Shown: piece by piece, positions 11,535-54,412 of the stretch
How the letters are laid out: each line of letters opens with the position of its first letter
Numbering within the stretch: the stretch's first letter is position 1
Source of the DNA: Candidatus Methanoperedens sp.
GTDB lineage: Archaea; Halobacteriota; Methanosarcinia; Methanosarcinales; Methanoperedenaceae
DNA: 56,332 bases
NCBI GenBank assembly: GCA_023249105.1
Contig: JAHFDG010000022.1
Location: forward strand, 1 to 56,332
Direction of reading: 5' to 3'
Program-made: the position numbers and the translations under genes
The notes under the pieces: model-generated
What the model was told of the DNA's origin: nothing
What the model saw: the letters and a program-made list of their open reading frames with translations, nothing else
Database searches by the model: none

Positions 11535-11780
11535 GTGGTAAAAGTGCCATTCAAAACTATAAAAATCAGGGATGAAACATACGAGAATATAAACGTCATC
11601 GTAGGGGATTTGATGAAGGAATTAAAGAGACCGGTGTCTATTGACGAAGCATTGAGGTATTTACTGAAGAGCATAAAAAACAAGCCAAGCCAGTTCGCTG
11701 GCGGATGGAAAATGGATGAAAAAGAGCTTCTTGAAATCAAAAAGGAATTAAAGGAAAGCTGGAAGAGATGGGAATTGTAA
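11535..11780 (+). CDS. VapB-type antitoxin
   Basis: An 81-residue protein starting with GTG. Its N-terminus (FKTIKIRDETYENINVIVGD) has the beta-helix pattern of archaeal VapB antitoxins (DUF217 type), followed by a Lys/Glu-rich tail that would wrap the toxin. It overlaps the vapC-like gene by 13 bases, the normal antitoxin-first order. Such antitoxins neutralise the partner nuclease and repress their own promoter. Confidence 0.75.
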   Translation: MVKVPFKTIKIRDETYENINVIVGDLMKELKRPVSIDEALRYLLKSIKNKPSQFAGGWKMDEKELLEIKKELKESWKRWEL

Positions 11781-12160
11781 TAGATACCGATGTTCTCATC
11801 GATTTGCTCAGGGGTAAGGAATATGCTGTCAGCAAAATACGAGAGCTTGAAAAAAAAGAAGAGCTTGCAACAACTGATATAAACGCTTTTGAACTGTACT
11901 TCGGCGCATACAATTCCAGGGATAAGACGCGAAACATCTCATCAACAAAAGGGCTTCTTAAGACTTTGACGCTGCTCCATACACGGGAAGAGAGCATGGA
12001 AACCGCAGGGAGGATATTTGCAGAAAAAAGAGCTAAGGGTAAAATGATAGAGATAAGGGATATGCTCATTGCGGCTATTGCTTTACAGAACGGATACAAA
12101 CTTCTCACCAATAACAGGGAACATTTTGAATGGATAGAAGGATTGGCTCTTCAGGAATAA
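11768..12160 (+). CDS. VapC-type PIN-domain toxin ribonuclease
   Basis: A 130-residue PIN domain. Acidic active-site candidates are Asp6/Asp8 in VIDTDVLIDLL, Glu in INAFELYFGA (about 42), Asp in IRDMLIAAIA (about 98), and the late TNNREHFEWIEGL motif that closes VapC proteins. VapC toxins cut tRNA or rRNA when freed from VapB. It follows and overlaps the antitoxin gene. The length and all motifs look intact, so the pair is probably functional. Confidence 0.85.
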   Translation: MGIVIDTDVLIDLLRGKEYAVSKIRELEKKEELATTDINAFELYFGAYNSRDKTRNISSTKGLLKTLTLLHTREESMETAGRIFAEKRAKGKMIEIRDMLIAAIALQNGYKLLTNNREHFEWIEGLALQE

Positions 12161-12206
12161 AAGATATTGCAAAGCTATATCGACGTTATATGCACTCAGT
12201 GTTGGT

Positions 12207-13331
12207 TTAAGAGTTTACTTCATCCTGCTTAAAGAAATCATCCCATCGCTCTAAAAAACCCTCTAAACCAATAGGTTGAAAATTTACTCTGTCCTTTCCA
12301 AATAACTGTTTGTATTTCGTTTTAGTTTCGGAATGCTTTGTAACAACGATAATCGAAATTTTTCCATTCTTGTTATTAGCCAACGCTTTGGTAAGTAAGC
12401 TCCTAATATGATAATCCGCTTCAGTCAATGAGTAACCGATAAAAACCAACGCATTTGCCTCAGAAATCTTTTTCTCAGCCAATGCCCATAATTGTTGTAA
12501 GAAGGGATTATCATACACTTTTAACATGGTTGGTGTGACTAATAAAGGTTCATAATTGGAAGTGCAATAAGGATTAGTACAAAAAAATCTACTACGACTT
12601 TCAAGATACTGAATTATCCCTTTTTCTGAAATTGTGATATCCATTTCATCGCATTTGGGACAATAAAACCAGTTTAAAGAGCCATGAATCTTTAACAAAG
12701 GTATTTTGCCTTCGTTTATTTTTCCTGTTGAACTTTTAAAATACCAATCTGTAATCCCATTTGCTCTATCATTTTCGGCCGTTAGGTTATATCTGAGATT
12801 TACTCCGTAATCACAACTCTGTGCCTTTTCGAGCAACGCATTATCAATAATAAGGTCATAGTTAGTGGAAATAATGGATACATATGAATACTGTAATAAT
12901 TTTTGTAATTTTCCTGTAAAGTCTCTACTTATCCCCAAATTTCTTACTCCATCAGAGGCAGTTTCAATATTTTGAATAACCTTTCCAATTAAGTAAATAA
13001 GGTCGTTGCGAACACTAATGATATCGTCTAACAAGTAATCTTTAGACAAAGCTTCGTTTTTCTGAATAGCATAATCAATAAGACTGAGTACGTCTTCAAT
13101 ATTGGGATATAATTTATCACTCTCATGCTTAAATGGATAATATATTTTTTCGATAAAATTTTTTACGCTTTCAATCTGGGTTTCATGGTCAATGCCATTT
13201 TTTGGATCAAAAGCTTTAATAAAAAACTCATTACCTAACGGCGCCGTTTCAACAACTGCTTTTGTGAATCCAGACCCTATGAAAAAGGCAATATTTTTCA
13301 TTTTTTCTTTCGACTCAATCGTAGTATCCAT
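12207..13331 (-). CDS. SIR2-domain protein with zinc-finger insert
   Basis: A 374-residue soluble protein with a Rossmann SIR2-like NAD-binding fold: AFFIGSGFTKAV (about 14-25), STNYDLIIDNAL and LLKIHGSLNWFYCPKC. A four-Cys metal site follows (CPKC, then CTNPYC), then LVFIGYSLTEADYHIRSLL near the end. This arrangement is that of SIR2_2-type proteins, many of which are NADases in anti-phage systems rather than deacetylases. It stands alone next to VapBC, and its DNA is clearly more AT-rich than the flanking pyc and trm1 genes, suggesting transfer. The start ATG at 13331 has GGGTAG upstream; Met11 is an alternative. Confidence 0.75.
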   Translation of the reverse strand: MDTTIESKEKMKNIAFFIGSGFTKAVVETAPLGNEFFIKAFDPKNGIDHETQIESVKNFIEKIYYPFKHESDKLYPNIEDVLSLIDYAIQKNEALSKDYLLDDIISVRNDLIYLIGKVIQNIETASDGVRNLGISRDFTGKLQKLLQYSYVSIISTNYDLIIDNALLEKAQSCDYGVNLRYNLTAENDRANGITDWYFKSSTGKINEGKIPLLKIHGSLNWFYCPKCDEMDITISEKGIIQYLESRSRFFCTNPYCTSNYEPLLVTPTMLKVYDNPFLQQLWALAEKKISEANALVFIGYSLTEADYHIRSLLTKALANNKNGKISIIVVTKHSETKTKYKQLFGKDRVNFQPIGLEGFLERWDDFFKQDEVNS

Positions 13332-14800: not shown

Positions 14801-17800
14801 CTAAAGGTGCTCTATTACATATTTCGCTTCCGCCACCAGTATTCCTGCGCCTTGCGCAGTTATTGATTTGCCGGCCTGCGCCTCGACTTCAGATATATAT
14901 GCTTCAATTTGGCTCTTTGCATCAGATATTTCACCTTTTTCAATCTTTTGCCTGGCTGAATTAAGTTTTGCGATTAAACTATTAGCTACACCAGCACTGG
15001 TTATCCAGCCACCTGAATTGACTTGCGCTTTGTATGCTTTTATTCCAATTCCGGACAAGCCTCCAGCGCCAGATATGCCTCGCTCCGTCAGTACCTGAAG
15101 GCTATCTATTGTGGCTATCACACTGAATGTTACACTCTGGCCCTTAAGGTTGCTTGCTTTATCTCCCGCCTCAATTATGAATTCATGTGTTCCAAAACTC
15201 AATTCAAGCATGTCAAATTTCTGGCCACCTGATACCTGTCTTGAGCCGTCTATCGTGGAATTCAACGTATTAATTCCTGAGAGCATATCCCGGGCCGAAA
15301 AATTCAGGGTAATTATTTCCGAGTGCAGATACGTTTTGTTTAGAGGGGAATTTACAGTTATGATTGGCTGCGTCTTATCTAAATTAATTCCCGCAACTAC
15401 GACAATTGCATTATTCCCTGCTTTATCTTCTGCAACACCGCTTGCGCTCTGTCCTGCCCCTTCAGTTGAGACAATGCTGTCTGGTGTGCAGTTTTCCACG
15501 CCTGACAGGTCATCGCTGCAATCGAAGTGAACCGACACATCGCTATTATACCAGCCGTAAGCGTTTGGCGAGGGGCTGGTTGAACCTGTGATCGTTGGGG
15601 ATGTCCTGTCAATTTTAACCTGTTTTGCATTCTTTTCCAACTCCATGTTGCCTACATTATCCTCGCTATTGTACATTATATCAAAAATCCCCTCATCCGC
15701 AACCAATATGACATTCCCCTGCGACGGTTCTGAAATCCCTATCGCATCTGACACCCATATTAAAAATGAATCGATGAGGGAGTTTGTTACCGGTATAACC
15801 TGATAATTCGTGGTTTTCACGTCTGACAAATCGTCAAACGATGTAAGTTTCACAGTCACATTATTGTTGTGCCATTCGCCATCGCTGTCGTCTATCGTAA
15901 CAGGGGCTGACCTGTCAATCCTTACTGCGGTCTTTTTTGCTTCTTCGGAATTGCCTGAGTTGTCTACACTGCGATAAGTTATGTTATGTATTCCCTCTTG
16001 TGTAAAGGTGAGCTGAATATTATTTGAATTTGTGACATATTCTGTATCATCTACTGTATAGTGTAATAGTGCAACATCAGACCGGTTGTCCATTGCTGTC
16101 AGGTTAAGTGCCACATCTGAATTATGCCAGATATTATCAGAGTTGTCTGTGGTTACAGGTGGTGTGACATCAATCTTCACAACCGCTTCATGGGGTTCTT
16201 CGGTATTTCCTGCATTGTCAACGCTATAATATCTCAAAGTGTGAATTCCCTCACTGCTTATGGCAATGGTTGTAATATTCGTGGAGGAGGGGAGTGGAAA
16301 AGAACCGTCAATACTATAATACGTTGCCAGAACACCACTGTTTTCATCCGTAGCTGCCAATGTAATAGTTACTGTTGAGTTATGCCACCGGCTATCAGCG
16401 TCATCTGTGGTATTCGGCGGTCTTGTGTCTATCTTTGCCGTGTTGAGCGCCGTCTTAACCCCTTCTTCATTGCCCGCATTATCCACGCTATAGTATTTGA
16501 TTGCATATTCACCGCTTTCTGAAAGGGTGATTTTTGTTCCTTTTTGGGATTCTATTGTTGGCAAAGAATTATCAATTGTGTAATATGTAGCAGAGATACC
16601 TGAATTTTCATCTGTCGGTGTCAATGTAACTATCAGGCTGGTGTTATGCCACAGCCCGTCAACGTCGTCTGTAGTTACGGGGGGAATAAGGTCTTTAGGC
16701 TTGCCTTTATAGGTATATGCGTAGATGTTGCCATTATAATTCCCGAGTATTATTTCCTTATTGCCATCCCCTTCAAGGTCTGCCATAATTGCCGAAGTGA
16801 AGTAATGGTATTTTTTAGCGATGTTTTTCTTCTCAAGGATATTTCCCCTGTAATCCCAGACATATATATTCCCATACATGTCCCCTCCCGCTATTTCCAG
16901 CTTCCCGTCGTTATTAAGGTCATCCAGGGCAAGATTGCTCGTTATCCTTTCAGCATTGAATTCTTTTAAAGTGTTATTGCTTATTATGTATATCCTGTCG
17001 CTTTCGCTTGAGGCTATTAACACTTCATTTACTCCGTTATTGTCTATGTCCCCGATTGAAGGAATATCGCGGTTATTGCTTATAGCAAACTTACTCAGAA
17101 CGTTCCCATCCCTGTCAAAAATATAGACGCCGCCTGATGAAACTACCACTATTTCCTTCCTGCCGTCACCATTAACATCACCTATCGCAGCATTCCTGGC
17201 ATCTCCACCTGTTTCTCGGCTCCAGAGTATTGTTCTCGTCGTGTGGTTCGCTTTTACAAGCCACACTTTCCCGTCTTTCGGAGCTCCATCATTCATATTC
17301 TGCGTGAGTATCAAAGCTTCGTCGATTCCGTCCGAATCAATGTCTGCAACCTGGATTTGTGCCAGGAAATTCACACTCTTTCCAAGTTCAAGGTACCATA
17401 GCTTAGTTCCCTGGTAATTGTAAGCGTGAAGGCCCGTACCCCCAACTATTGCAGAAAACGATACGCCCGGGGCTGCTCCTGTGAGGATTGTTCCATCATT
17501 TGTGATAGCAGGTGAGGAGATTACAAGGTATTTTCCCACCAGGAAATTCGACAGGCTATTCCCTGCCGCACCCCATACATAAAATGTGGCATCTGACCAG
17601 CCAGGATTTCCATATGATATTACTTCAAGCTTGCCATCACCATTCACATCGCTTACCAGAGGGACCCTTCCATCATCGTACTGCGCATTCCCGCCCGTAT
17701 TCTCCCAGTTAACTGTACCGTTGTAATAAAGCACTTTTACAATCCTGTTCTGGGGTACTGCTATTATCTCAAGTTTTCCGTCGCCGTTGATATCCTGTGC

Positions 17801-17920
17801 AAGTAAAGGAGCTTGCAGTTCTTCGCCCACCTTCACCGGAAAGCCCTGGTGCTGCTCTATTTCAGCGGAAGCTATTGTTACGAGAAAAATCATCGTTAAG
17901 AGTGAAATTAATTTCTTCAT
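14801..17920 (-). CDS. Secreted FG-GAP propeller / Ig-repeat protein
   Basis: A 1039-residue exported protein. I chose the ATG at 17920 because it gives a good signal peptide (MKKLISLLTMIFLVTIASA) and a ribosome site (AGAGGTAAC); the start lies 2 bases after the giant cytochrome stop. Residues about 25-400 hold about seven FG-GAP/VCBS repeats with Ca-binding DxNxDG loops (DINGDGKLEI, DVNGDGRKEI), which should close a beta-propeller. Then come four similar Ig-like modules of about 95 residues, each with a WHN motif and VDNxGN end (WHNTSLIVTL, WHNSTVTITL), two more divergent ones, and a helical FIVAR-like C-terminus. No heme motif, TM tail or sorting signal is seen. It probably acts as an extracellular scaffold for the cytochrome. 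Confidence 0.85.
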   Translation of the reverse strand: MKKLISLLTMIFLVTIASAEIEQHQGFPVKVGEELQAPLLAQDINGDGKLEIIAVPQNRIVKVLYYNGTVNWENTGGNAQYDDGRVPLVSDVNGDGKLEVISYGNPGWSDATFYVWGAAGNSLSNFLVGKYLVISSPAITNDGTILTGAAPGVSFSAIVGGTGLHAYNYQGTKLWYLELGKSVNFLAQIQVADIDSDGIDEALILTQNMNDGAPKDGKVWLVKANHTTRTILWSRETGGDARNAAIGDVNGDGRKEIVVVSSGGVYIFDRDGNVLSKFAISNNRDIPSIGDIDNNGVNEVLIASSESDRIYIISNNTLKEFNAERITSNLALDDLNNDGKLEIAGGDMYGNIYVWDYRGNILEKKNIAKKYHYFTSAIMADLEGDGNKEIILGNYNGNIYAYTYKGKPKDLIPPVTTDDVDGLWHNTSLIVTLTPTDENSGISATYYTIDNSLPTIESQKGTKITLSESGEYAIKYYSVDNAGNEEGVKTALNTAKIDTRPPNTTDDADSRWHNSTVTITLAATDENSGVLATYYSIDGSFPLPSSTNITTIAISSEGIHTLRYYSVDNAGNTEEPHEAVVKIDVTPPVTTDNSDNIWHNSDVALNLTAMDNRSDVALLHYTVDDTEYVTNSNNIQLTFTQEGIHNITYRSVDNSGNSEEAKKTAVRIDRSAPVTIDDSDGEWHNNNVTVKLTSFDDLSDVKTTNYQVIPVTNSLIDSFLIWVSDAIGISEPSQGNVILVADEGIFDIMYNSEDNVGNMELEKNAKQVKIDRTSPTITGSTSPSPNAYGWYNSDVSVHFDCSDDLSGVENCTPDSIVSTEGAGQSASGVAEDKAGNNAIVVVAGINLDKTQPIITVNSPLNKTYLHSEIITLNFSARDMLSGINTLNSTIDGSRQVSGGQKFDMLELSFGTHEFIIEAGDKASNLKGQSVTFSVIATIDSLQVLTERGISGAGGLSGIGIKAYKAQVNSGGWITSAGVANSLIAKLNSARQKIEKGEISDAKSQIEAYISEVEAQAGKSITAQGAGILVAEAKYVIEHL

Positions 17921-17922
17921 AG

Positions 17923-20900
17923 TTACCTCTTCCTCAAGGTTCCCGTGCTTGTCTGCACGTGGCATGGTGATGACCCGAAGCAGCCGCCTACGCCCAGGTA
18001 AATTCCCATTCTTGATTCATGGAGCGTAATGTTCACACTGGTATCGGAGTTATGGCATGAATACTGGCAGGGAGTAGGTGACCCGCCCATACGGCTGTGG
18101 TTTGAAGGCATTTCTCTTGCATTTCCATAATCCTTCAGTCCCCCGCTGTGACATAAATTGCATCCGGATTTGGTCTCGTTGGTGACGGGTAATCCGTTCC
18201 TATCGCTATAATGAGAGACATTAGCCTCGTTTTTATATTTATAATTATTAGTATATAAAATATTGTCAATCGAAAAAAGACTGTTCCTGTGGCATTCAAA
18301 GCATTCTTTTGATGAGTTGAAAACCAATTTATTGCTAAATGCCAGCCCTGCGTAATGCTTGTAAATCTTGGTGGCGTTCTCGTAAACCTGCGGATTGAAA
18401 TAGCTGATGTTGCCTCCTGACGTATGGCATTCCTCGCACTGGAACGCCCTTTCTGCCGAAGGTCCTCCCCTGTCCGGATGTGAATTACTCGGTACATTTG
18501 CTATGTCAGTGACATGGCATGTCCAGCATGCTGAATCCAAAAGAATTGTATTGGGCTTTTTGCTGTCGTTCCATGCCGTATAGTTAGTCAGGTTCCTATG
18601 CACAGAATTATTCAGGATTGTGTGATTAACCCTGTTTGTGGGAAATCCCTGACCGGCTGGCGCACTTAGATTATGGCATTTAATACAGGCAGGACCGCCT
18701 TCAAGCGGTTCAATCGTGACATTGTGCACCATGTAGCGATCATGAGAACCTGACCGGTTGGTATGACAGTTGTAACATGAATCAATGGAGTCGGTGGCTG
18801 TATGTGCCTTTTTGTTTTCACCTGTTATATTCGCCTCATAACCAACCGAATTAGTGAAGGGATATGTATTATTATGCTGCCTGTGGCAATCTATACAGTC
18901 CACGTACAGCGTATCCGTGAAACCATTGCCAGTGTCATTCCTGTCGCTCCAGACGCTGTTAACACGCTCAGGGTCTGCTACTATGCCTGCTGCGTATTTA
19001 TCGAGATGGAAACCAAGGGCAGCCCCAGAGGCATTATGACACTGGCTTATGTTGCAGGTCTTCACACCTGCATAGGTATGATTGTAGTCATTTGATGCAA
19101 TTACTTTCTTTGTGGATTTATACGGGCTTATCCTGTTGAAGTGGCAGGTATCGCATGTGCCATTTGAGCGGTTCATGCCTATGCTGTGCATCGAAGGTTT
19201 GCCGCTCATGTTATGGCAGGAATTGCAATCATAGTCGCTTGTACTGGTATTGCCCCTGTATTGCGATGCGTTGGGCATGTGTGAGACTATCTGTTTGGCT
19301 GCACCAACATACGTAGTAGTGGCATTGTGGCATCCCTGGCAGCCACTGTAAATAACAGGGCTGGTAGAATTGGTAAGCGTTGAAGAATGAAGTTTTACGA
19401 TGCTTCCATTGATTCCCTGCGAACTTGAATTATGACAGTAACCGCAATCATCACCGATTGGCGTAGCTGTTGTATTGTGGCTGTAAACGTATCTGGTAGC
19501 ATTTGAATTGCCCGGCCTGTGACATGGAGCGCAGTAATCTTTGCTTCCTGGCGTCCACACCTGTACTGCTGGTTTTGTCAGGTTAGCGTCGTGGATTAAT
19601 CCTGTTGCATGGCATTTATTACTTGTGCATGTAAGTGTGGCATTTGTTATATTCGCTGTGCTGCTGGTGTGTTCGTAGATGCTCCTGTTCGTGTCGGTCA
19701 ATGGGAACACCGAGGATAAATTCTGGTGGCAATAGAGACAGCTTGTATTTGCCCCGCTCCTCAAATCGGCTCGCTTCTTACCATAGTGATATGCGCTTAT
19801 GTTCGTGCCGTTTACTCCATCTCCTTCGGCATCGAAACTGCCTGCATCGGGGTCGTTGTTTGACAGGAGCATTTCACTTATATTCTGGTGGCAGGCAAGA
19901 CAGCTTCTCGTATTATTCGTTGCGTTTGTTGCCTTTATCTCGCTCCCGTTCCTGAAATGCTCTTTGACCTGGGGCGCACCGTATGGAGCGCTGGTGTTGA
20001 TGTGGCAGCTTTCGCATAACTTGGGCGCTTTGTAAGTAGTATTGATATGGGCTGTTGCTGTGCCGTTGCCGTGGCATGCCCAGCAAGGTTTGTTTGCGCT
20101 GTCATAGCCCGCTGCGTTTGCGCCGCTGTTCAGGTTCTTGTGGATATTGTTACTGGCATTGGTAGCTGTGAAATCTATATTCTTATTGCTGCTGCCTATG
20201 TTGTGGCAGTTGATGCAGTTGGGGTTTGAACCTGTTCCCTGATTGAGTTCTTCAGCGTGGAACGTTACCGGGATTCCTTTACTGTCAACATGACACTCAT
20301 AACACTGGTTGTTTGCAGAGTACACGTTATGGTCTCCCCTGTTGTTGATATTTGCATTACTGGTTGAGAGTACGCCCCACTTTGCCATGTTGCTTCCATT
20401 CTTATGGCAGAACATGCAGTCTGTGGAGTTCGTGGTTCCGCCCATGAGCTTGCTGGCACTCCTATTCTGGCCGTAGTGGGCTGCGGTTGCATTACTGCTG
20501 CCCTGGGTATCGTCATTAAAGCCTGCAAGGCTGTTGTTGTGGCAGAGGTCACAGAATACCTGCTGGTATCTGCTTGTGTTAACCGTGGTATTGGCGTAGC
20601 TGCCGTTGAGTATGTGTTCGCTTACGTTCTTTGCGCCGTATTTCGTTTTGCCTGCGATATGGCAGTATGTGCAGCTATTGACAGAAGAGTTCTTGTGGAT
20701 GCTGACATTCCCGCCGTGACATGCTTTACATGATGGATTGATATTGCTGGCAGTTGCGCCGTCGATAGTAGCATGCATGCTGTTGGCTGCGCTCAGGCTG
20801 GCATTGTCCACCTTTGGAGCTCCGCCGTACTTATTGGCGTGACATGCATTGCAGTTGCCCCAGTCAATGGCTCTTGTAACGTTATGCATTTCAACAGGCA

Positions 20901-23900
20901 CTCTGATATCGCTTGCATTGAGCACGGTCAGGTTGCTGTGGCACTGGTAGCAGTCATTCAGCGTTGAACCGTAATTCCCTTTATGCCAGTTGGGATAGGT
21001 GCCCGGCTCTGCAAAAAACGGCGCCTGGTTCGCATAGGTAATATGGCAGACCGTGCAGTTGGCTCGCGTGCCGTTGACCCAGCCGCTCCATCCCGGCGCT
21101 TCCACCGTGCCGTTTGACCACTGCGTGAAGTGGAAAGGTTCCAACCGGTTGGTATTGTTATGACATGAGTTGCAGTTGATATTGGCACCATTGTGGGATG
21201 TGTTGTCGTGTCGTGTGACATTCACAAAGGGCGTGGCATTTGCCTTGTACTGACTTGCGCCGCTTGCATTGTGGCATGAATTGCAGTCATAGTTTGGTTT
21301 CTTTATCAATCCCTGGTTGTGCATCTTTGCACCGTAAGCCCAGCCATGGCACTCCTCGCAGTCCCATGCGCTCAAATAAGTATTTGCCTTGCCTGCGGGC
21401 GCACCCGGGTAATGTGTATTTATCACCCTCGATGCGCCCACGTATTTACTGTCCCTGTGGCAGGCTGCACAGGTCGAATTTGTGGCTGATGTGTTGGTAA
21501 GCTGGATTGAATGTATCCTGAGCGCGCCGTTACTGGTAGCGCCCTGTGAAGATGCATTGTGGCAGTAGCCGCAGTCCATGCTTACAACGGAGATATTAGA
21601 GGTATTGTGGGCGTAAACGTATTTGGTGGCGTTGCCATCTCCCGCTTTGTGACATGGGGCGCAGTAATCCTTGCTATTTGCTGTCCAGTTCTGCACTGCC
21701 GGTTTTGTGAGCGTGGAGTTGTGAATGTATCCTGATGCATGGCATGAACTGTTAGTGCAGCTTCTTCCGGTTGTATTCCTTGTACCGTTTTCCGTATGCT
21801 CGTAGATGGATTTATTGAGGCTGCCTAACATCACATTTTCAAATGCAGTGCTTGAATTCTGGTGGCAATAGGAGCAGTTTGCGCTTGTACCTGGGCGAAT
21901 ATCGCTTCGCTTCATTCCATAGTGCGACACTGAATCATTCGCCGGATTGGTTACTGAAAGCGCTGTATCGCTATTGGATTTGAGCATTTCGGTCTTGTTA
22001 TGGCAATCCGTGCAGTATGTTGCTGCTGCGGTCTTGATATCGCTCCCGCCTCTGTAGTGTTCGGTCACATTGAGAATCGTATTATTCGGCGTGTAATTGG
22101 TGTTCCTGCCGCCTGAAGGCACATGGCAGTCCGCGCACTTATAAGCGTTCTTGAAATTCGCGGGATGACTATTCGGCTCTGTTCCGTTGCCGTGGCAAGC
22201 CCAGCACCGCTTGCTATCGCCGGCATAAAATGGTGAAGCCTTAACAACGGTTGCATCCTTGTTTAGATTAAGATGTATGGAATCGCTCTTATTCATGGCT
22301 GCCACGTCTATCTTCTTGCTTGCTTCGCCTGCCAAGTCGTGGCAGAGCGTACAGTTGGCATTTCCAGGTGCCTGCACAACATAGTGCAGCGCTTTTGGAT
22401 TGGAATCATGAGTCGAAACATCTGTGTGGCAGTTGTAGCACCCGTCAAGAGTGGCGCTGGTGTGTGTGGGGCTTGAGGAGAACAAGGCATAGAACGGTGC
22501 CTGGTTGGTCTTGTTCCTGTGGCAGTCTATACAGTTCGCCTGCGTGCCGTTAGTCCACGAAGCCCAGCCCGGTGCAACTGAAGTGCCGTTTGCATAATCC
22601 GTAAAGTGGAAGATTTCCTGCCTGTTAGTAGTATTATGGCAGCGCTCGCAACCGCTCTGGTTTGTGGGCGCATGTGTGGTATTGTCATGCAGGAATGAAT
22701 TTATCGAGGCTTTTGCTGTAGTGGCATTGTAAGGACTAGTCTTGTAGCCGTTCCTGTGGCAGGACTGGCAATCGTAATTCGGTTTCTTTACCGTGCTCTG
22801 ATGAAGCTTATTCGCGACAGATATGCTGTGGCACAACTCGCATGTTCTCCCGCTTTCTGAGGTGTTGCCTTTCTCAGTTGTAGCGTTGGGGTAGTGCGTT
22901 TTGATTATCCTGCCTGCGGGTACATAAGTTACATCCCTGTGGCATGTTTCACATGTGGAGTTCGCGGTGCTCTTGTTCGCAAGACGTGTTGAGTGAATCC
23001 TGAGCGCCCCGCTCGCCTGCCCCTGCGATGATGCATTGTGGCAGTAACCGCAGTCCATGCCCGGAGTGGAGATGTTGGAAGTGTTATGACCCCTAACCTT
23101 CTTGGTCGATATCCCACTCTCCCTGTGGCACGGGGCGCAGTAATCATACTTTCCTTGCGTCCAGTTCGAAACAACAGGTTTTGTGAGTGTGGAATTATGT
23201 ATGAATCCTGTATTATGGCAACCCGCATCGGCGCATGCCCTGCCTGTTACGTTCTTTGTGCCGTTATCCGTGTGCTCGAATATGGATTTATTAACAGATG
23301 GGTTCTGCATCACAGACGCAAAGGCAGTGCTTGAGTTCTGGTGGCAATATGCACACGAAGTGTTAGCGCCGGAGCGAATGTCTGTGCGCTTCCTGCCGTA
23401 ATGGTACGGGCTGTTGTTTCCGCCTATTGTACCATTGTAGTTATCGCCGCCAGAAGTCCATGCAGTAGTCTTATTATAATCAGTATCGTTGTTGTAGAGC
23501 AGCATCTCACCTATGTCCTGGTGGCACTTCAGGCAGGAAAAGGTGACTGTAGCATTATATGAAGCTTTAATATCAGTACCATTGGTGAAATGCTCAGAAA
23601 CATTGAGTGCGCCCTTGCCTGTTGCCCATACATATCTTACGCCTGTTGATACATGGCAGTCTGCGCATACATAGGGATTCACGTAGTTGCCTTTGCCGAA
23701 GGCATCCCCCGTGGTGTTATGCCCTTCGCTGTTGCCGTTTCCGTGGCATGCCCAACAGGGCTCGTTCTCATCGGCTCCTGCCGTGGTGTTTATGCCGCCG
23801 TGAATCGATATATTAAACGCTGGATAATCAACATGTCCCCTCTGCTGGTTGGTGTCCGAGATGTTGTGGCAGCTCTTGCAATTAGGATTGCTGGCGCCGC

Positions 23901-26900
23901 CAGCTCCTTCGTTCATCTCTTCTACGTGGAAAGTAAAGGTATTGGTGAGATTTGAATTGTGGCAGCCGCCGCAATCGTTGTTTGTATATCCACTGTGCGA
24001 TGCCTTGTTGTTGAGGTTCTTGGTTGTGGAGGTATTAACTCCCCATTTCGTCATGTTGTTATTGTTGCCCTTGTGGCAATAGTTGCAGTCTTCAGAGTTG
24101 CCTTTGGGCGGGGCGGAGTAGTCATACATAAGCTTGCCCCCTGTCCTGTTAAGCCCATAGTGCCCGGTTCTTGCATTAATCGGGTCGTTATCGTTTACCA
24201 GAGCCGTGGTGTTGATGCTGTTGTTGTGGCAGTCTGCGCATGACCACGATGCTACTGAATTCGCTGTTATGTTTGCCTCAGGAGTTATCAAACCTTGAGG
24301 TATGTGCTCATAAACCCTGGTTGCGCTGCTGTAGTTCAATTTTCCAGTTGTATTAGTATGACACTTATCGCAAGTCTTTATACTTGGATGGTGATCCTCA
24401 GAATTGTTGAATAATCCATCCCCATGGCATGCCCAACAGGCAAGCTCAATCGGGTTTGAAGCGTTGGAGACGTTTGCTGATGCATTTTTCAGATTGGCAT
24501 GCATTCCTTTTCTTAAAGCATCCACATCTACTTTCTTGTACTGGGTGTTGGATGCACTGGTATTGTGGCATGTGACGCATTTCCTGTTTCCACCCGCTCC
24601 GACCTGCACATTGTGCACGAACTGGGAGGAAGTGGTATCTCCACTCTTTCCGTGGCATAGGAAGCATCCCGAGTCGTTCATATCGCTGTAGGAAGGGCCT
24701 GTATGGTTGACATAAGCCGTCTTGTCGTCTTTTGATTTTGTGAAATTCCCGTAGGTCTTGTTGCCTGTTATTTCAGGAGGAATATTCTCAGGCGGCTTCC
24801 TTGTCACATTGAATTCCCTTATCATGTCTGAGTAGTTGGAAGCCTTGTCCCAGTGGCACTGCACGCACCATGTCGAGTTTGAAAGGTTCGTGGAATTATA
24901 TTTGTTACTACCTTTGAACGTATCCGGAGAACCGATGGCTGGATATACATAGTGCTTGTTGGGCGAATGGCACTGTTCGCATGGGTACTGCAGGCCCCTG
25001 TCTGTATAAACATACAGGTAGCGGATGTGAAAGACGTCTGTGACCGCATCCATCTCGCTCTGGTCGGTATCCACGAACTTGACGCTCACATTGCCTGTTT
25101 TTCCATCTGTGGAATTGATATGGTGCGTGCTGTTGATGTCTATGACATAGTCGTAGAACACACCCTTATCCAGAGTATCCAGCATATCGAAAGCCCCGGA
25201 TGTTTTATTATATATAGAGAGAGAGGTATTCTCCATATGTGCCTGGTAGGACATCCCCAGTTTGCTGCTGCCGTTCACTGGTATGTCTGTGGTGATTAAT
25301 TCAATCTCGTACCTGTTCCAAACCTTTTCCTGGATTTTTAATAGAATATTATCATAATTGATGGTTTGAGTTCGCGAGGCTGTTGTTCCCAGCAGCACTG
25401 TATACAGTTGAATATTGTACGGGGTTACCGAGCCGTCCTCATTAAGTGCTGAAGCAAAGCTATTGTTGCTCATACTAACCCAGCCTGTGTTTGTTGAACT
25501 GCTTGCGCTCGCCAGTGTCACAACAGTACCGGAGGGTTTGACTAAATTCAAATAAACGTTCTGTGCATTTGCACTTCCCACGGTTATATTATAATCAACG
25601 CTGGCATTTGTATATGCAAACCCATAGGTAGTGTTTGGTTTATAATAAAATGAATAATTCCACCAGACGTACCCGTTGTAAGTTCCAGCTTTGCTTCCTG
25701 TTTTAAGCGATGCTTTCAAAGAGCCTGCTGGATTACCTTTGGTTGCATCCTGCGAAGCCGTAACCATACTGCCTGAACTTCCGCTCGCTGATGTTGCAGA
25801 TGTCCAATTGGGGACAGGAGGTCCGTTGATCTGCCGTTCTTTCATATTGAATGGGACTGTAATCCCGTCCCCGCTTCCTCTCTTTGTCTCATTGAGCTGC
25901 ATGTAATCGTTACTTGGCACCTTGATGTTCTCAAATGGATGCGCAGGGTCTATGGTACCATTCCCAATAATCCGATAATCTACGAACTCGTATGTTGTTG
26001 GAGTGTACTTCCAGTAATCTCCCCATTTGGTGCCGTTGCCTGGGTCGTTGCTGTGCGCCTGACCATAAACCTTTGGCGATGTCTTTCCTGATAGGTTCTT
26101 AATCGTGATATCCGTATTTGTGGATTTATGGCAGTCGTAGCAGGTTGCGCTGGTTAAAGCTGCGCCCGTGAAATTGCCGTTGTATTGAATGAACTGGATG
26201 GGGTGGATCCATGTTCCTGTGGTGTTGCTTACATTCCCCATGTGGCAGTCCCAGCAGGTCAAAGTGCTGTTATGGAAATTATAATTGTTCTGTTGGTGGC
26301 AGGCCGGATTCTGGCAGGTTGAGCTAATATTGGCTTCAGTGAACTTGGGCACTACGATAGTATCATCGTGCATTCTTCCTTCTTCGTGACATGTCGCATT
26401 ACCGCATCCTGGCGTGGAGATTTGCGAAGCATGGTCGCCCCTTACCTTATTATCAGGATTTTTAAACGGTCCCATCACAGTGGCTTCGTTCTGGTGGCAG
26501 TAGCCGCAGTATTCACGTTTGCCTTCAAGGGGCAGGAAAAAGGATGTCCTGTTTTCACCGTAATGCGAGGCTGATTCGTTGTCTGTCTTGGGAGGATAGA
26601 CCTCTTCATTCCATGCATTGACCTCCTCGTCTTTGGCATGGCAGTCCGGACAATAGGTTACCGCGGTAGTCCTCATGTCAGGCGCATACCATGTATGCCT
26701 GTATGTTTGCGGCGCGCCGAAATTGATGCTTGCATTGGTATTATTATGGCAGGATGTGCAGTTCCTGGGCGCGTCATATCCGCCCGGATGCTCATCAACC
26801 GAAAGGTTCGTGGCATTCACTCTTCCATTTCTAACAAGGCTGTTGTTGGTATGGCAGCCCCAGCAGATGCGTGAGGAGTTTGCGGCATCTGAATTGTGGT

Positions 26901-28488
26901 TCAAATCATAATGAGTATAATTCTTATTTGAGATATTTGCAATTGCAGGGTCAACCTTCATGTCAATCGGCGATTTTCCCGTCAGGTTGTGGCAGTCCAT
27001 ACACCACTTGCCGCCGTAGGCGCCGACAGGGACTATATGTGAGTCAAGTTTATTATTTTCAGTATGGCAGTTGGAACATTGTTTGGTTTTTGAATGGTTC
27101 TTGGCAGTCCCGCCATTCGAGGTGATGTTCAGCCAGCCGTCTGTTATATTGTGGCAAGACCAGCACTGGTCATTAATATTAGTGTAATCAGTACTCCTGT
27201 TCGGGAGACCTGCCACCTGATGCAACCCACCTGTTCCTGTGCCAGGTGCGCCGCCGCCTGCATGGCAAAGTTCACAAGGGACTCCTTTGGTTGTTGAAGA
27301 GTGATTGTGGGATTTGCTCTGCCCGGGAGTTTGCGACCAACCTTTCCAATCTACGTTAAAGAGTTGAGAACCTGTGATTTTGGTGGTTCCATTGCTCCCG
27401 GCTTGAGTACCATGGCAGACTGGATAACCTCCGGTTCCATTTCTGGGCCCTTGATACCAGGAGCATGATGGTCTTTTATTATCTGGTATTCCGTCACCGT
27501 TTTGATCTCCAGATGCGGCACCAGTGGTAATAGCAAGAACACTTCCAATTAGATAGTCATAGGTGGTGGTGGTAGTAGAGCCACCATGGCAAAGAACACA
27601 AAAGCTTGCATTGCTATTATCCCAGGTAGTCTGATTCCTCAAACTTAATGTATTAGTCCCTAACTTATAATCCCAATCAGCAGAATCAGATTCACCACGA
27701 GATATACCCCTCAATCTTTCCGGATCATCATACAGGATAGTATTGTTTGGGCCGTGAGTACCCAATGCATACTGATAGCCCCAGTGGCATACAGTACACA
27801 CCACACCATCATGCTGGCCTGCACCATGGGCAGTACCTATGGTCTTATCGTGCCTACAACCCATATTCCCGAAAATTACAGAGACATTCGTTTTATAGGT
27901 AGTGCCATTATACTTTAACGTAACATTTATTGATATATTTAAATGGTCAGTGAGTGGAGGTTTAGTGGCTAAACTCAATGTACGAACAACATTGGTATTG
28001 CTTGAGTTAAAAATTCCATCTACATCATTATCTGTAAAGGCGGGGAATGCAACATAATTATAATATGTTCCTCCTGTGGAAATAACAGTATAGAAAGGAT
28101 AGTTAGCCAGCCCTGGACCTGAGTGATTCCATCTCTCTACATCTCTCAATGCAGCACTTATGTTCGATGCAGGAATGCCTTTTACAATATTGCCGTCGGA
28201 ATCAAGCAATACCACAAAAAGATTTGGTTGCTGACTGAAAGATCCGTAAGTATCTGTGCCTCGGGTAGTATCTATTGTAGGTGGTTGAGTCCATAAATAT
28301 GCATAATCCAGGTACACCTGTTTATCTGTAAAAACCACCACCTTGTACGGTGGCGTGTACGCACTCGCCGTCTCTGCCATAGCAAACAGCGCCGCTAATA
28401 CCACAAAAACCAGCAACGCGGCTCTCGCTGCATGACATGCAATTATTTTTTGATATTTTTCACTATCCTGCTTTGCATTCGAGGACAT
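17923..28488 (-). CDS. Giant multiheme c-type cytochrome (3521 aa, ~70+ hemes)
   Basis: An exported protein with a signal peptide (hydrophobic core about residues 22-36, cleavage near ETASA, 43). Residues 45-225 are heme-free and beta-rich. By hand count I find about 70 CXXCH motifs, six CX4CH (for example CADAGCH, CTNSSCH, CTSNKCH), one CX3CH (CQYSCH) and one CX5CH (CFGSSPCH), the first near residue 228. A heme-free insert at about 785-1165 looks like a jelly-roll domain. Many extra His residues could be second ligands, and N-X-S/T sequons are very dense. No TM tail, S-layer domain or sorting signal is visible at the end (TSTGTLRKR). Such proteins conduct electrons outside the cell in ANME archaea. 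It is the first gene of an operon with the propeller protein. Frame is open throughout. Confidence 0.93.
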   Translation of the reverse strand: MSSNAKQDSEKYQKIIACHAARAALLVFVVLAALFAMAETASAYTPPYKVVVFTDKQVYLDYAYLWTQPPTIDTTRGTDTYGSFSQQPNLFVVLLDSDGNIVKGIPASNISAALRDVERWNHSGPGLANYPFYTVISTGGTYYNYVAFPAFTDNDVDGIFNSSNTNVVRTLSLATKPPLTDHLNISINVTLKYNGTTYKTNVSVIFGNMGCRHDKTIGTAHGAGQHDGVVCTVCHWGYQYALGTHGPNNTILYDDPERLRGISRGESDSADWDYKLGTNTLSLRNQTTWDNSNASFCVLCHGGSTTTTTYDYLIGSVLAITTGAASGDQNGDGIPDNKRPSCSWYQGPRNGTGGYPVCHGTQAGSNGTTKITGSQLFNVDWKGWSQTPGQSKSHNHSSTTKGVPCELCHAGGGAPGTGTGGLHQVAGLPNRSTDYTNINDQCWSCHNITDGWLNITSNGGTAKNHSKTKQCSNCHTENNKLDSHIVPVGAYGGKWCMDCHNLTGKSPIDMKVDPAIANISNKNYTHYDLNHNSDAANSSRICWGCHTNNSLVRNGRVNATNLSVDEHPGGYDAPRNCTSCHNNTNASINFGAPQTYRHTWYAPDMRTTAVTYCPDCHAKDEEVNAWNEEVYPPKTDNESASHYGENRTSFFLPLEGKREYCGYCHQNEATVMGPFKNPDNKVRGDHASQISTPGCGNATCHEEGRMHDDTIVVPKFTEANISSTCQNPACHQQNNYNFHNSTLTCWDCHMGNVSNTTGTWIHPIQFIQYNGNFTGAALTSATCYDCHKSTNTDITIKNLSGKTSPKVYGQAHSNDPGNGTKWGDYWKYTPTTYEFVDYRIIGNGTIDPAHPFENIKVPSNDYMQLNETKRGSGDGITVPFNMKERQINGPPVPNWTSATSASGSSGSMVTASQDATKGNPAGSLKASLKTGSKAGTYNGYVWWNYSFYYKPNTTYGFAYTNASVDYNITVGSANAQNVYLNLVKPSGTVVTLASASSSTNTGWVSMSNNSFASALNEDGSVTPYNIQLYTVLLGTTASRTQTINYDNILLKIQEKVWNRYEIELITTDIPVNGSSKLGMSYQAHMENTSLSIYNKTSGAFDMLDTLDKGVFYDYVIDINSTHHINSTDGKTGNVSVKFVDTDQSEMDAVTDVFHIRYLYVYTDRGLQYPCEQCHSPNKHYVYPAIGSPDTFKGSNKYNSTNLSNSTWCVQCHWDKASNYSDMIREFNVTRKPPENIPPEITGNKTYGNFTKSKDDKTAYVNHTGPSYSDMNDSGCFLCHGKSGDTTSSQFVHNVQVGAGGNRKCVTCHNTSASNTQYKKVDVDALRKGMHANLKNASANVSNASNPIELACWACHGDGLFNNSEDHHPSIKTCDKCHTNTTGKLNYSSATRVYEHIPQGLITPEANITANSVASWSCADCHNNSINTTALVNDNDPINARTGHYGLNRTGGKLMYDYSAPPKGNSEDCNYCHKGNNNNMTKWGVNTSTTKNLNNKASHSGYTNNDCGGCHNSNLTNTFTFHVEEMNEGAGGASNPNCKSCHNISDTNQQRGHVDYPAFNISIHGGINTTAGADENEPCWACHGNGNSEGHNTTGDAFGKGNYVNPYVCADCHVSTGVRYVWATGKGALNVSEHFTNGTDIKASYNATVTFSCLKCHQDIGEMLLYNNDTDYNKTTAWTSGGDNYNGTIGGNNSPYHYGRKRTDIRSGANTSCAYCHQNSSTAFASVMQNPSVNKSIFEHTDNGTKNVTGRACADAGCHNTGFIHNSTLTKPVVSNWTQGKYDYCAPCHRESGISTKKVRGHNTSNISTPGMDCGYCHNASSQGQASGALRIHSTRLANKSTANSTCETCHRDVTYVPAGRIIKTHYPNATTEKGNTSESGRTCELCHSISVANKLHQSTVKKPNYDCQSCHRNGYKTSPYNATTAKASINSFLHDNTTHAPTNQSGCERCHNTTNRQEIFHFTDYANGTSVAPGWASWTNGTQANCIDCHRNKTNQAPFYALFSSSPTHTSATLDGCYNCHTDVSTHDSNPKALHYVVQAPGNANCTLCHDLAGEASKKIDVAAMNKSDSIHLNLNKDATVVKASPFYAGDSKRCWACHGNGTEPNSHPANFKNAYKCADCHVPSGGRNTNYTPNNTILNVTEHYRGGSDIKTAAATYCTDCHNKTEMLKSNSDTALSVTNPANDSVSHYGMKRSDIRPGTSANCSYCHQNSSTAFENVMLGSLNKSIYEHTENGTRNTTGRSCTNSSCHASGYIHNSTLTKPAVQNWTANSKDYCAPCHKAGDGNATKYVYAHNTSNISVVSMDCGYCHNASSQGATSNGALRIHSIQLTNTSATNSTCAACHRDSKYVGASRVINTHYPGAPAGKANTYLSAWDCEECHGWAYGAKMHNQGLIKKPNYDCNSCHNASGASQYKANATPFVNVTRHDNTSHNGANINCNSCHNNTNRLEPFHFTQWSNGTVEAPGWSGWVNGTRANCTVCHITYANQAPFFAEPGTYPNWHKGNYGSTLNDCYQCHSNLTVLNASDIRVPVEMHNVTRAIDWGNCNACHANKYGGAPKVDNASLSAANSMHATIDGATASNINPSCKACHGGNVSIHKNSSVNSCTYCHIAGKTKYGAKNVSEHILNGSYANTTVNTSRYQQVFCDLCHNNSLAGFNDDTQGSSNATAAHYGQNRSASKLMGGTTNSTDCMFCHKNGSNMAKWGVLSTSNANINNRGDHNVYSANNQCYECHVDSKGIPVTFHAEELNQGTGSNPNCINCHNIGSSNKNIDFTATNASNNIHKNLNSGANAAGYDSANKPCWACHGNGTATAHINTTYKAPKLCESCHINTSAPYGAPQVKEHFRNGSEIKATNATNNTRSCLACHQNISEMLLSNNDPDAGSFDAEGDGVNGTNISAYHYGKKRADLRSGANTSCLYCHQNLSSVFPLTDTNRSIYEHTSSTANITNATLTCTSNKCHATGLIHDANLTKPAVQVWTPGSKDYCAPCHRPGNSNATRYVYSHNTTATPIGDDCGYCHNSSSQGINGSIVKLHSSTLTNSTSPVIYSGCQGCHNATTTYVGAAKQIVSHMPNASQYRGNTSTSDYDCNSCHNMSGKPSMHSIGMNRSNGTCDTCHFNRISPYKSTKKVIASNDYNHTYAGVKTCNISQCHNASGAALGFHLDKYAAGIVADPERVNSVWSDRNDTGNGFTDTLYVDCIDCHRQHNNTYPFTNSVGYEANITGENKKAHTATDSIDSCYNCHTNRSGSHDRYMVHNVTIEPLEGGPACIKCHNLSAPAGQGFPTNRVNHTILNNSVHRNLTNYTAWNDSKKPNTILLDSACWTCHVTDIANVPSNSHPDRGGPSAERAFQCEECHTSGGNISYFNPQVYENATKIYKHYAGLAFSNKLVFNSSKECFECHRNSLFSIDNILYTNNYKYKNEANVSHYSDRNGLPVTNETKSGCNLCHSGGLKDYGNAREMPSNHSRMGGSPTPCQYSCHNSDTSVNITLHESRMGIYLGVGGCFGSSPCHVQTSTGTLRKR
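18500..24260 (-). repeat. Tandem heme-module duplications inside the giant cytochrome
   Basis: Three copies of a two-part module are visible in the protein. Part A runs from CWACHGNG through YHYG.KR, AYCHQNSS, EHT, KDYCAPCH and CGYCHNASSQG to a CNSCH/CQSCH; part B runs from a CHN.TNR/F.FH segment through CIDCH and CYNCH to a CTLCH. A copies start near nt 23765, 22210 and 20090; B copies near 22650, 21175 and 19060. A third module X (HYG.NR, CHK, MAKWGV, NPNC..CHNI) precedes the first and third A copies (near 24260 and 20600). The protein therefore grew by segmental duplication. Confidence 0.8.
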
Positions 28489-51803: not shown

Positions 51804-51836
51804 TAAAAAAAATAAGAAAGAAGGTATTTTACCTTC
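51804..51836 (-). terminator. Hairpin/T-run terminator of the octaheme gene
   Basis: GAAGGTA and TACCTTC form a stem with a 3-base loop (51820-51836), followed on the minus strand by an almost pure T run (51818 to 51804). The hairpin overlaps the last codons and stop of the cytochrome gene. The gap 51710-51828 has nothing else. Confidence 0.75.
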
Positions 51837-53079
51837 TTCTCAAGAGTCCCGCTACTAGCAGTGCCGAAATTGCTATTAGCGCCTCAAACGCTGGTGTTTT
51901 TGGCGTTGTTACTGGCGTTGCTGTCGCAGTGGCTTCCGCTTTGACATATTTATGTATGCCTTTTGCATACTGCCCTGCCCATGCCTTATCCTTAGTGTTA
52001 TGGCAGTTCAGGCATGTCCATTCCAGCGTCAGATATCCATTAGCAAATTTTCCATCGTCAGTAAACATCTTTGCGTTGGCGTCGGTGTTTATCTTGAACA
52101 GATGCGTCTTGACGTCTGCTTTGAATCTGGCTGCATCTCCTGTTGCTGATTCACCTATGGCTGGCATATGGCAGTTGATACATTTCACGCCTGCTTTCTG
52201 CATCGTGCTTCCCGTGAAATCTGTATTCTGCTTGGCATGGCATGATGAGCACTGCGCCTCTATATTGGCGCCTTCTGTTGGGTTCGTCTGTCCAACATGA
52301 GAACCTTTATGCGGTTCATGGCACTGGACACAGTTAAGTCCTTTATGCGGGCCGTTCAGGATTTCGGGGTATTGTTCATGGTGGTCTATGAATTTACCGT
52401 CTTTGGCGATAATCTTTGTATCGTCAGCGCCTCTTGTGTGGCAGGCTCCGCAAACTGCGGCAGAGTCATTCTTTATAATAGCCACACCTTTTCCTCCACC
52501 TTTGGCAATGTGAACGCTGCCCGGCCCGTGGCAAGCCTCACAGCCTATGGACTTCTCTTCCCATGTTCCGACAATACCTGGTTTGTTAGCCTGGTTCCCT
52601 GCCAGAGAATAGCCGGTTGTATGGCAATTGCCACAATTAAATTGTAATTTTTCACCGGGATGATAATCTACCCATTGTTTAGTAGCTATGTTGTACTGGT
52701 TCGAACCGTTAACACTTCTGTCAGCCCCTGTCTTTGTGATTATATAACCATTGTTGTCTATATACCTCGACTTCCAGCCCCAACCTCCAATAACGAGATA
52801 AATATCGTTATACGTATATCCCTCAGGAGCCGGTATAGGCGGCGAATTGAATACCTGGATTTCGGCCGGGGTGTTTAATTTATAAGGATGCCCTGATGTT
52901 TTCCAGTCATTGTATTTTTCCATATGACAGGTCTTGCATTTTTCAGATCCTGCATATGTTGAAGCCGGGTCCGGTTTGGTCACCGGGACTTTATGTTCAC
53001 CTATTACGTAGTCCTTTGCAGATACCTGCTGCACAGACAGCAGAATCGCAAATGCTAGCAAAATATATAATATTTTCAA
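51829..53079 (-). CDS. Octaheme c-type cytochrome with PGF-CTERM-like sorting tail
   Basis: A 416-residue exported cytochrome. A signal peptide (KILYILLAFAILLSVQQVSA) is followed by eight CXXCH sites: CKTCH, CGNCH, CEACH, CGACH, CVQCH, CSSCH, CINCH and CLNCH. The spacing resembles cytochrome c554/octaheme reductase relatives. The C-terminus has a Thr/Ala linker, then TPAFEALIAISALLVAGLLRRR split as motif, hydrophobic helix and Arg cluster, a likely archaeosortase target. The start is TTG, preceded by a strong AGGGGGGG. It follows the EB_dh-like gene and probably passes electrons outward at the envelope. Confidence 0.88.
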   Translation of the reverse strand: MKILYILLAFAILLSVQQVSAKDYVIGEHKVPVTKPDPASTYAGSEKCKTCHMEKYNDWKTSGHPYKLNTPAEIQVFNSPPIPAPEGYTYNDIYLVIGGWGWKSRYIDNNGYIITKTGADRSVNGSNQYNIATKQWVDYHPGEKLQFNCGNCHTTGYSLAGNQANKPGIVGTWEEKSIGCEACHGPGSVHIAKGGGKGVAIIKNDSAAVCGACHTRGADDTKIIAKDGKFIDHHEQYPEILNGPHKGLNCVQCHEPHKGSHVGQTNPTEGANIEAQCSSCHAKQNTDFTGSTMQKAGVKCINCHMPAIGESATGDAARFKADVKTHLFKINTDANAKMFTDDGKFANGYLTLEWTCLNCHNTKDKAWAGQYAKGIHKYVKAEATATATPVTTPKTPAFEALIAISALLVAGLLRRR

Positions 53080-53212
53080 GATATTTTCCCCCCTTACATG
53101 TTTTTCTTTTTATAACATTAAACTTAAATTGATTTAAAGGTTTTGGGAATAAACTGCATCCAAAAATGATGTTATGTGGAAAGTACAAAAAAATTCAATT
53201 GAAAGCGATTCG

Positions 53213-53245
53213 GAAAAATAAAAAAGAAGGTATTGTTTTACCTTC
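53213..53245 (-). terminator. Hairpin/T-run terminator of the EB_dh-like gene
   Basis: GAAGGTA (53226-53232) pairs with TACCTTC (53239-53245), followed on the minus strand by a T-rich run (53225 to 53213). The stem is identical to that at 51820-51836, and again overlaps the last codons. A partial read-through to the octaheme gene is possible. The gap 53080-53237 has no other gene. Confidence 0.75.
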
Positions 53246-54374
53246 TTCTAACCAGAACAGCCACCAGCAGTGCTCCGACTGCGAATATTATTTCAAATGC
53301 CGGTGTCTTTGGTGTTGGCGCCGGTGTTGCAGTCGTGGGTACTGGCGTTGGAGTCGCCAGCGCTGCGAAAACGAGTTTGCTCACACCCGTCTCATAGCTG
53401 TGCCTTACCTGCGCATTATCAAATATCGCAGTGCCAAAGGAATATTCCTTCTTCATGTCAGAGAACTGCACATCATACTGGCTTCCAGTTGTCAGTTTTC
53501 TGCCGTATTCCATTGTCCATTTGCCGTCCGCATAGACAGCCTTGCCCTTGATGTCTGCCCTGTCTCCTGTGGGAGGTCTTACGATTATACCTGCAATTTC
53601 ATCATTTGTTTTGTAGGTATCCTTGAAGGGCTGCTTCTCAGAATCAACAATCCAGTACGGCGGAGCCGGCTGGTCTGCTGAGGTATAGTTCGGAGCGGTC
53701 TTGGCGGCATTGATGTTATCAGAGTATGGCCCTGGAGTCCCAGGATCGCTATGTCTGCCCGCATCTGCCGCAGTTGTTTTATTGTATCTTGTGGAGTCCA
53801 GGTACTGGTCATCTACATAACCTGATGGATTTGTTCGCACAAGTTTTGCATGCCAGATATCTGCCATCTCACCAGGATTTGGAGCATATTTATTGCCGAA
53901 GTCTTTGACATCTGAGTTCTCACCTACATGGCATGTGGCAAAACAACCAGACGCTTCGAAAGTGGGTATGTTTATGTTCCATATCTGAGCGAACTTATCT
54001 TCATAAAAAGTATTCTCGCCGCCTTCCTTGGCGTTGGGTGTCTTAAGCTGCTTCCATGTACCGTCAGCCTGTTTTTGCCACGGCATGCGCCTTAAGCTTT
54101 CTGTCGGGTCGTTCCACGAGGCAAGGAAATACACAGAGTCGTCTGTATAAACGCTTTTCAGCGTAACCGTATGCGCTCCTGTATTGGCTCCTCCCGCCAC
54201 ATTAACCGTCATGGCAGTTGCCTGGTCCCATATTGCTTCTGGCGTGCCGTCGATAACCGGCGCTGCAGCCACCTTTACAGAAGTAAGGGTGCCGGCAGAC
54301 CCAAGTCCAATGCCAAAAGACAACCATATCACCAATCCTAACACTATTGATTTTTTAACTTTTCCCATTTTCAT
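53238..54374 (-). CDS. Ethylbenzene-dehydrogenase-like heme-binding protein with sorting tail
   Basis: A 378-residue exported protein. I start it at the ATG at 54374, with GGGAGGAGT 4 bases upstream and a signal peptide core (SIVLGLVIWLSFGIGLGSAG). The domain pattern (APVIDGTPEAIWDQA, VYFLASWNDPTES, KFAQIWNINIPTFEA, AIFDNAQVRHSYE) resembles the EB_dh heme-binding domain of DMSO-reductase-family gamma subunits and soluble relatives. A CX3CH site (CFATCH) may bind heme c unconventionally. A Pro/Thr linker leads to TPKTPAFE, a hydrophobic helix and RRR. It is first in the pair with the octaheme cytochrome. Confidence 0.8.
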   Translation of the reverse strand: MKMGKVKKSIVLGLVIWLSFGIGLGSAGTLTSVKVAAAPVIDGTPEAIWDQATAMTVNVAGGANTGAHTVTLKSVYTDDSVYFLASWNDPTESLRRMPWQKQADGTWKQLKTPNAKEGGENTFYEDKFAQIWNINIPTFEASGCFATCHVGENSDVKDFGNKYAPNPGEMADIWHAKLVRTNPSGYVDDQYLDSTRYNKTTAADAGRHSDPGTPGPYSDNINAAKTAPNYTSADQPAPPYWIVDSEKQPFKDTYKTNDEIAGIIVRPPTGDRADIKGKAVYADGKWTMEYGRKLTTGSQYDVQFSDMKKEYSFGTAIFDNAQVRHSYETGVSKLVFAALATPTPVPTTATPAPTPKTPAFEIIFAVGALLVAVLVRRR

Positions 54375-54412
54375 ATAACTCCTCCCAGATATCGCATGCA
54401 CTCTTTCACCCG

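Follow-up and report, generated by a model that had tools for sequence, protein, structure and literature searches.

How ANME archaea carry electrons over tens of nanometres past their S-layer is an open issue, and the closest described proteins are giant multiheme cytochromes (MHCs). HGW-Methanoperedenaceae-1 (HGW-1) has four MHCs with 50 or more motifs (PMC5520028), and a passage of PMC7082337 cites a 69-heme MHC of the same organism. An MHC with 113 hemes has been published for 'Ca. M. manganireducens', as an S-layer fusion, and related giants were found to be transcribed when methane oxidation was Mn-dependent (PMC7082337). Another, with 86 hemes, lies on an ANME-2c fosmid; the three ANME MHC types A, B and C are each defined by an S-layer domain or by one of the pectin-lyase-like kind (PMC9012536). 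Large MHCs beside a propeller protein are known from SEEP-SRB1, in which an operon combines 16- and 26-heme cytochromes with a six-bladed beta-propeller (PMC5539420).

The locus described here lies in a window (the whole stretch of DNA analysed, 56,332 nt) from a genome of 3.28 Mb in 134 contigs that is 99.7% complete. The genome belongs to 'Ca. Methanoperedens', in agreement with a preliminary description of the window that had pointed to an ANME-type organism. For comparison we used above all 'Ca. Methanoperedens' nzgw23, which is of the same genus, and HGW-1, which represents another genus of the same family and has two relevant giants (A and B). The features of the locus are as follows.

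17923-28488, minus strand: giant multiheme cytochrome c (3521 aa; 70 CXXCH, 8 CX3-5CH and 1 CX15CH)
28357-28488, minus strand: signal peptide region (aa 1-44), its start kept in two homologs (MSSKAxQERVK...)
24606-28356, minus strand: portable head module (aa 45-1295; 17 standard or expanded sites plus one CXnCH)
27844-28356, minus strand: N-terminal heme-free domain (aa 45-215), probably Ig-like by eye, alignable in homologs
27412-27465, minus strand: CX15CH motif (aa 342-359), with CX10-15CH in 5 of 5 homologs checked
24994-26091, minus strand: heme-free insert (aa 800-1165), predicted beta-sandwich with weak Foldseek likeness to CBM29/CBM4/CBM61
23989-24606, minus strand: mosaic switch zone (aa 1295-1500), with HGW-1 giant A as nearest homolog before it and nzgw23/HGW-1 giant B after it
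22519-23973, minus strand: 14-heme repeat, copy 1 (aa 1506-1990)
21043-22440, minus strand: 14-heme repeat, copy 2 (aa 2017-2482)
18883-20304, minus strand: 14-heme repeat, copy 3 (aa 2729-3202)
17926-18921, minus strand: C-terminal domain and tail (aa 3190-3521), ending GIY..C....CH....(G)-basic, found in seven cassettes
14801-17920, minus strand: partner gene (1039 aa), starting 2 nt after the cytochrome stop

The frame runs from an ATG at 28488 down to 17923 without internal stops or ambiguous bases, so that the single 3521-residue frame reported beforehand stands. Its hand count of about 70 CXXCH motifs plus eight expanded ones was matched exactly by a regular expression (70 + 8), whereas shuffled cytochrome residues gave a mean of 0.4 CXXCH and a maximum of 4 in 200 shuffles. 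The expanded motifs comprise one CX3CH (aa 3474), six CX4CH (aa 695, 725, 1752, 2244, 2954 and 3145) and one CX5CH (aa 3503). They are taken as real sites because they correspond to standard sites of homologous copies or are kept in other proteins: copies of the 14-heme repeat have either CX4CH or CXXCH as their seventh site, and the last two expanded motifs are invariant in seven homologous C-termini. The predicted number of heme sites is 78, perhaps 79 with the CXnCH motif. Since about 98 of the 177 histidines lie outside the motifs, there are enough for bis-His ligation at every heme. The mature protein has a mass of 377 kDa without hemes; loaded with 79 hemes it would have 426 kDa, and glycans would add to this. 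Many CXXCH motifs in a protein with a signal peptide place it among the multiheme c-type cytochromes; the signal peptide, also noted previously, is the sole hydrophobic segment of the entire chain.

Closer inspection of the protein revealed a head and a body that differ in their nearest homologs. The head consists of the heme-free N-terminal domain, for which Pfam gave no meaningful match even at E ≤ 5, followed by 14 sites, the heme-free insert and three further sites, with the CXnCH in addition. Likeness of the insert to carbohydrate-binding modules is a lead and not a result (AlphaFold pLDDT 44, best part 65-86). The body is built from the three 14-heme repeats, with partial copies between and after them. 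Between aa 400 and 1250 the nearest relative is HGW-1 giant A (~50-69%), and the congener nzgw23 is distant (~30-40%); from aa 1600 to 3100 nzgw23 is nearest (75-89%), and from aa 3100 to 3521 it is HGW-1 giant B (up to 71%). In genome G006 the head leads, from the same point on, into tandem FnIII-like repeats (~88 aa each) and not into a heme body (L069, G006:C19, 3-5933, minus strand, running off the contig). The same head with the same joint in another context means that the head behaves as an exchangeable module. On sequence comparison, the cytochrome is thus a mosaic of a portable head with 18 sites and a body of 14-heme repeats.

The preliminary description had ranked the protein among the larger multiheme cytochromes. 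This holds for its size, but it is not exceptional for its family: several relatives have 60-113 hemes, and with 113 hemes already published for 'Ca. Methanoperedens' (PMC7082337), size is not the news. HGW-1 giant A aligns over the full length with 48% identity and is followed by the same next gene, and giant B shares the C-terminal segment (~70%); the cytochrome of the window combines a head like that of giant A with a tail and partner like those of giant B. The 'M. manganireducens' giant has the same heme-repeat family. The corresponding protein in our set (G007:C49, 113 CXXCH), which is probably the published one, matched by heme count only, differs in being larger, in its hydrophobic, membrane-anchor-like tail and in that no propeller partner was found in its genome. 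Generic 34-heme proteins of Bacteroidetes (L003/L004, 21% identity) served as controls only.

ANME MHC types A, B and C and the cytochrome of the window are all giant extracellular cytochromes of ANME archaea. The S-layer domain PF07752 has 18 matches in the genome and none in the contig of the window (C76), in line with the earlier remark that the protein is not an S-layer fusion; S-layer/MHC fusions are encoded elsewhere in the genome (C45, C124). No C-terminal transmembrane helix, as in ANME MHC-A and MHC-B, is present, the signal peptide being the only hydrophobic segment, and Pfam detected neither the N-terminal peptidase M6-like domain of MHC-B nor a pectin-lyase-like domain, of which a very divergent beta-helix would escape such a search. 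The protein is of a known kind but a variant outside types A, B and C, and we found neither its partner cassette nor its sequon signal described.

The heme repeats resemble surface metal reductases. The MtrC/MtrF domain II/IV family (PF22113) matched nine stretches with 255 bits against a gathering cut-off of 30, a domain-level likeness that is inflated by the CXXCH-rich sequence; the repeats are also similar to cytochrome c7 families. A profile of the repeat gave 21 matches in the PDB at E ≤ 0.01, including 6qvm (OmhA-type), MtrF and MtrA, whereas whole-protein phmmer against the PDB found nothing. By profile the repeat resembles these surface reductases more closely than polymerising nanowire cytochromes. 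The cytochrome is far larger than MtrC/MtrF/OmcA and OmhA-type proteins; it scored 27 bits against the curated cut-off of 209 for the OmcA/MtrC family (TIGR03507) and stayed below the NCBIfam cut-off for DmsE.

The partner encoded downstream has a signal peptide, an FG-GAP beta-propeller, Ig-like domains of the OmpL47 and CHB_HEX (chitobiase-C) types and a FIMAH C-terminus. In the family we identified seven partner genes of full length (window, G000:C55, HGW-1 A, HGW-1 B, G029, G019:C56 and nzgw23 C118), every one of them directly behind a gene for a multiheme protein that shares the C-terminal domain of the window cytochrome. An order-level search gave full-length matches to this domain in Methanoperedenaceae only. 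The association is not strictly one-to-one: an eighth giant with the same tail (L066, G019:C18, 4160-6499, minus strand) adjoins a mutS-like gene and has no propeller partner next to it. The new element, judged from gene order, is that this type of giant travels with a putative dedicated, propeller-shaped partner. The SEEP-SRB1 operon likewise has large MHCs beside a propeller protein, all secreted and without membrane helices; it is bacterial and encodes two smaller cytochromes and a PPIase, in contrast to the FG-GAP/Ig-like/FIMAH partner found here, and is an analogy only. In two of these genomes, G029 and G019, the next gene encodes a six-heme cytochrome that has a membrane helix at its C-terminus. 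In HGW-1 a 7-heme + FeS + NrfD set lies directly upstream of giant B (L027 2431-5400, upstream of 5702), between two divergent giant MHC genes; such sets are of the menaquinone:cytochrome c oxidoreductase type (PMC7327174). The genome of the window has the same set on another contig.

A second unusual property is the number of N-glycosylation sequons; like the partner gene and the mosaic head, it had escaped the preliminary description. The cytochrome has 199 N-x-S/T motifs (x not P), compared to 73 ± 7 in shuffles, 76 ± 7 with heme motifs fixed (maximum 97 of 1000) and 79 ± 7 within 20-residue blocks (z 18-20). The mirrored motif, S/T-x-N, is present 59 times. When all residue pairs of the same spacing are ranked, with pairs containing C or H left out, N-x-T comes first and N-x-S second (z-like 10.8 and 9.6; next 3.5), and these two also lead the ranking in the nzgw23 ortholog and in the 113-heme protein. 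Sequon asparagines of the body are kept more often than other asparagines in nzgw23 (114/126 versus 82/114; one-sided Fisher p 0.0002) and in HGW-1 A (59/117 versus 33/100; p 0.007), p-values that ignore shared ancestry among the proteins; in the head, no such difference was seen. Large MHCs of families f1, f2, f3, f17 and f21 are also enriched, mostly with z of 6-22 (one f1 protein only 3.7), and the enriched giants span several archaeal families (17923-28488 and L028, L046, L070-L073, L084-L086). One f34 protein reached 4.2 and the main S-layer protein a moderate 5.7; the 6-, 7-, 8- and 16-heme ANME cytochromes checked, the partners and all other genes of the window stayed within about ±2.5. 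That the sequons are a by-product of composition or heme-motif spacing is rejected by the shuffles, both those with fixed motifs and the local ones, by the count of the mirror motif and by the ranking of all pairs, and also by the f9 homologs, which have the same type of repeat with mostly little or no enrichment (z −1.3 to 3.4).

The genome has one gene for an STT3-type oligosaccharyltransferase (STT3/AglB; C74), and sequons together with this enzyme are what is expected of archaeal N-glycoproteins. Sequons are not proof of glycosylation, and the 199 are potential sites. The giants appear to have been selected to carry dense sugar attachment sites, which is new here; we found no report of glycosylation of giant MHCs in the freely accessible literature covered. 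We tentatively suggest that the ANME giants may form a class of densely N-glycosylated conduits with ~2.5 potential glycans for every heme. Selection would have spread sugar sites over all their polar loops, and the glycans would make the heme chain soluble, shield it or insulate it; in the present type, the exchangeable head and the dedicated partner with its propeller would be a further specialisation.

In sum, our data point toward a giant c-type cytochrome that is secreted by 'Ca. Methanoperedens' and probably serves extracellular electron transfer outside the S-layer. We read it as a conduit because of the number and conservation of the motifs, the likeness to MtrC/MtrF, the separate S-layer/MHC fusions, the oxidoreductase-type set beside HGW-1 giant B and its counterpart in the genome of the window, the two-gene cassette, the sequons and the transcribed relatives; a role as surface wire or cell-to-mineral conduit, as first proposed, is plausible. 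From the menaquinone pool, electrons would pass through membrane cytochrome complexes and through the S-layer/MHC fusions from other parts of the genome, enter the giant cytochrome and move from heme to heme along its chain until they reach an external acceptor, which may be a metal oxide, humics, an electrode or another cell. It is imaginable that the carbohydrate-binding-like insert of the head and/or the propeller hold the cytochrome in the cell coat or on its target, and that the propeller docks on the conserved C-terminal domain; redox partner and mode of attachment are guesses. Dense N-glycans on the loops may give the chain solubility, protection and some insulation. Hemes in OmcS-like chains are spaced at ~0.8 nm. 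With this spacing the cytochrome could reach roughly 60 nm if fully extended, and far less if folded compactly. Since the AlphaFold models are poor (pLDDT 37-44; the 14-heme repeat, at 37, is too poor for measurement of the heme chain), a continuous heme chain is putative.

A protein with so many hemes per chain, arranged in several similar 14-heme units, might instead act mainly as an electron store in the cell coat, a capacitor that buffers when acceptors are scarce rather than a directional wire, and the absence of an anchor and an S-layer domain leaves the direction unfixed. We consider this unlikely, as the conserved head, the C-terminal domain and the dedicated partner suggest a positioned function that a store would not obviously need. 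Extracellular location and multiple hemes are also properties of the subunits of polymerised nanowires such as OmcS, OmcE, OmcZ or the archaeal ECN filaments, and a long-spaced CXnCH occurs in OmcZ, too (CX14CH, PMC11208441). It is nevertheless improbable that the cytochrome is such a subunit: chains of OmcS, OmcE, OmcZ and ECN are absent from the PDB matches of the repeat profile at E ≤ 0.01, and the protein, with its bulky heme-free domains, is far larger than subunits of 4-8 hemes. Its size, secretion and lineage would also suit a cytochrome that crosses the S-layer itself, the arrangement proposed for ANME MHC-A/B; without PF07752 in the contig or a C-terminal transmembrane helix, and with the fusions in C45 and C124, this is quite improbable.

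The change of nearest homolog at aa 1295-1500 could also be the mark of an assembly chimera, or the gene could be decaying, but we regard both as highly improbable. Long exact repeats are absent, the longest within the gene being 17 nt, and internal repeats have at most 80% identity over at most 96 nt. The head ends at the identical point in G006, which makes an assembly error at the mosaic junction unlikely. Frame and motifs are kept in two other genomes: in the nzgw23 ortholog, which runs to the end of its contig (at least 3695 aa, 75 CXXCH + 8), 77 of the 78 sites align with a heme motif and the 78th falls at the contig end, and in the complete HGW-1 giant A (L002; 3353 aa, 67 CXXCH + 7) 72 of the 78 do so. 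HGW-1 giant B (L027) is interrupted by 10-N scaffold gaps (23 + 14 + 38 CXXCH). At the level of assemblies, neither an internal join nor absence from related genomes, the two findings named beforehand as fatal to the gene, was encountered.

The conduit reading thus offers a defined two-gene unit with an exchangeable head and a prediction of heavy N-glycosylation. Glycans, if present, would bear on the conductivity, heme exposure and biochemical behaviour of giant MHCs, and they may help to explain a possible under-detection of these proteins in standard peptide searches.

The flanks contain, by eye, chorismate synthase-like, shikimate kinase-like and aminoacyl-tRNA synthetase-like frames and two tRNAs, which suggests a chromosomal setting, and no relatives of the cytochrome were found in viral contigs and plasmids. 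At 11768-13331, a small PIN/VapC-like frame (by eye) adjoins a gene for a SIR2-like domain protein (PF13289), a possible toxin or defence function. Elsewhere in the window (51829-54401, minus strand), an eight-heme cytochrome lies beside an ethylbenzene-dehydrogenase-type heme protein (PF09459), and both have similar hydrophobic, sorting-signal-like tails (TPKTPAFE...RRR). Another contig of G006 (L067, G006:C24) carries a very long frame, reported as 5323 aa, in which there are at least 36 CXXCH; a 27-heme frame follows, and both have ends of the TGNISG type.
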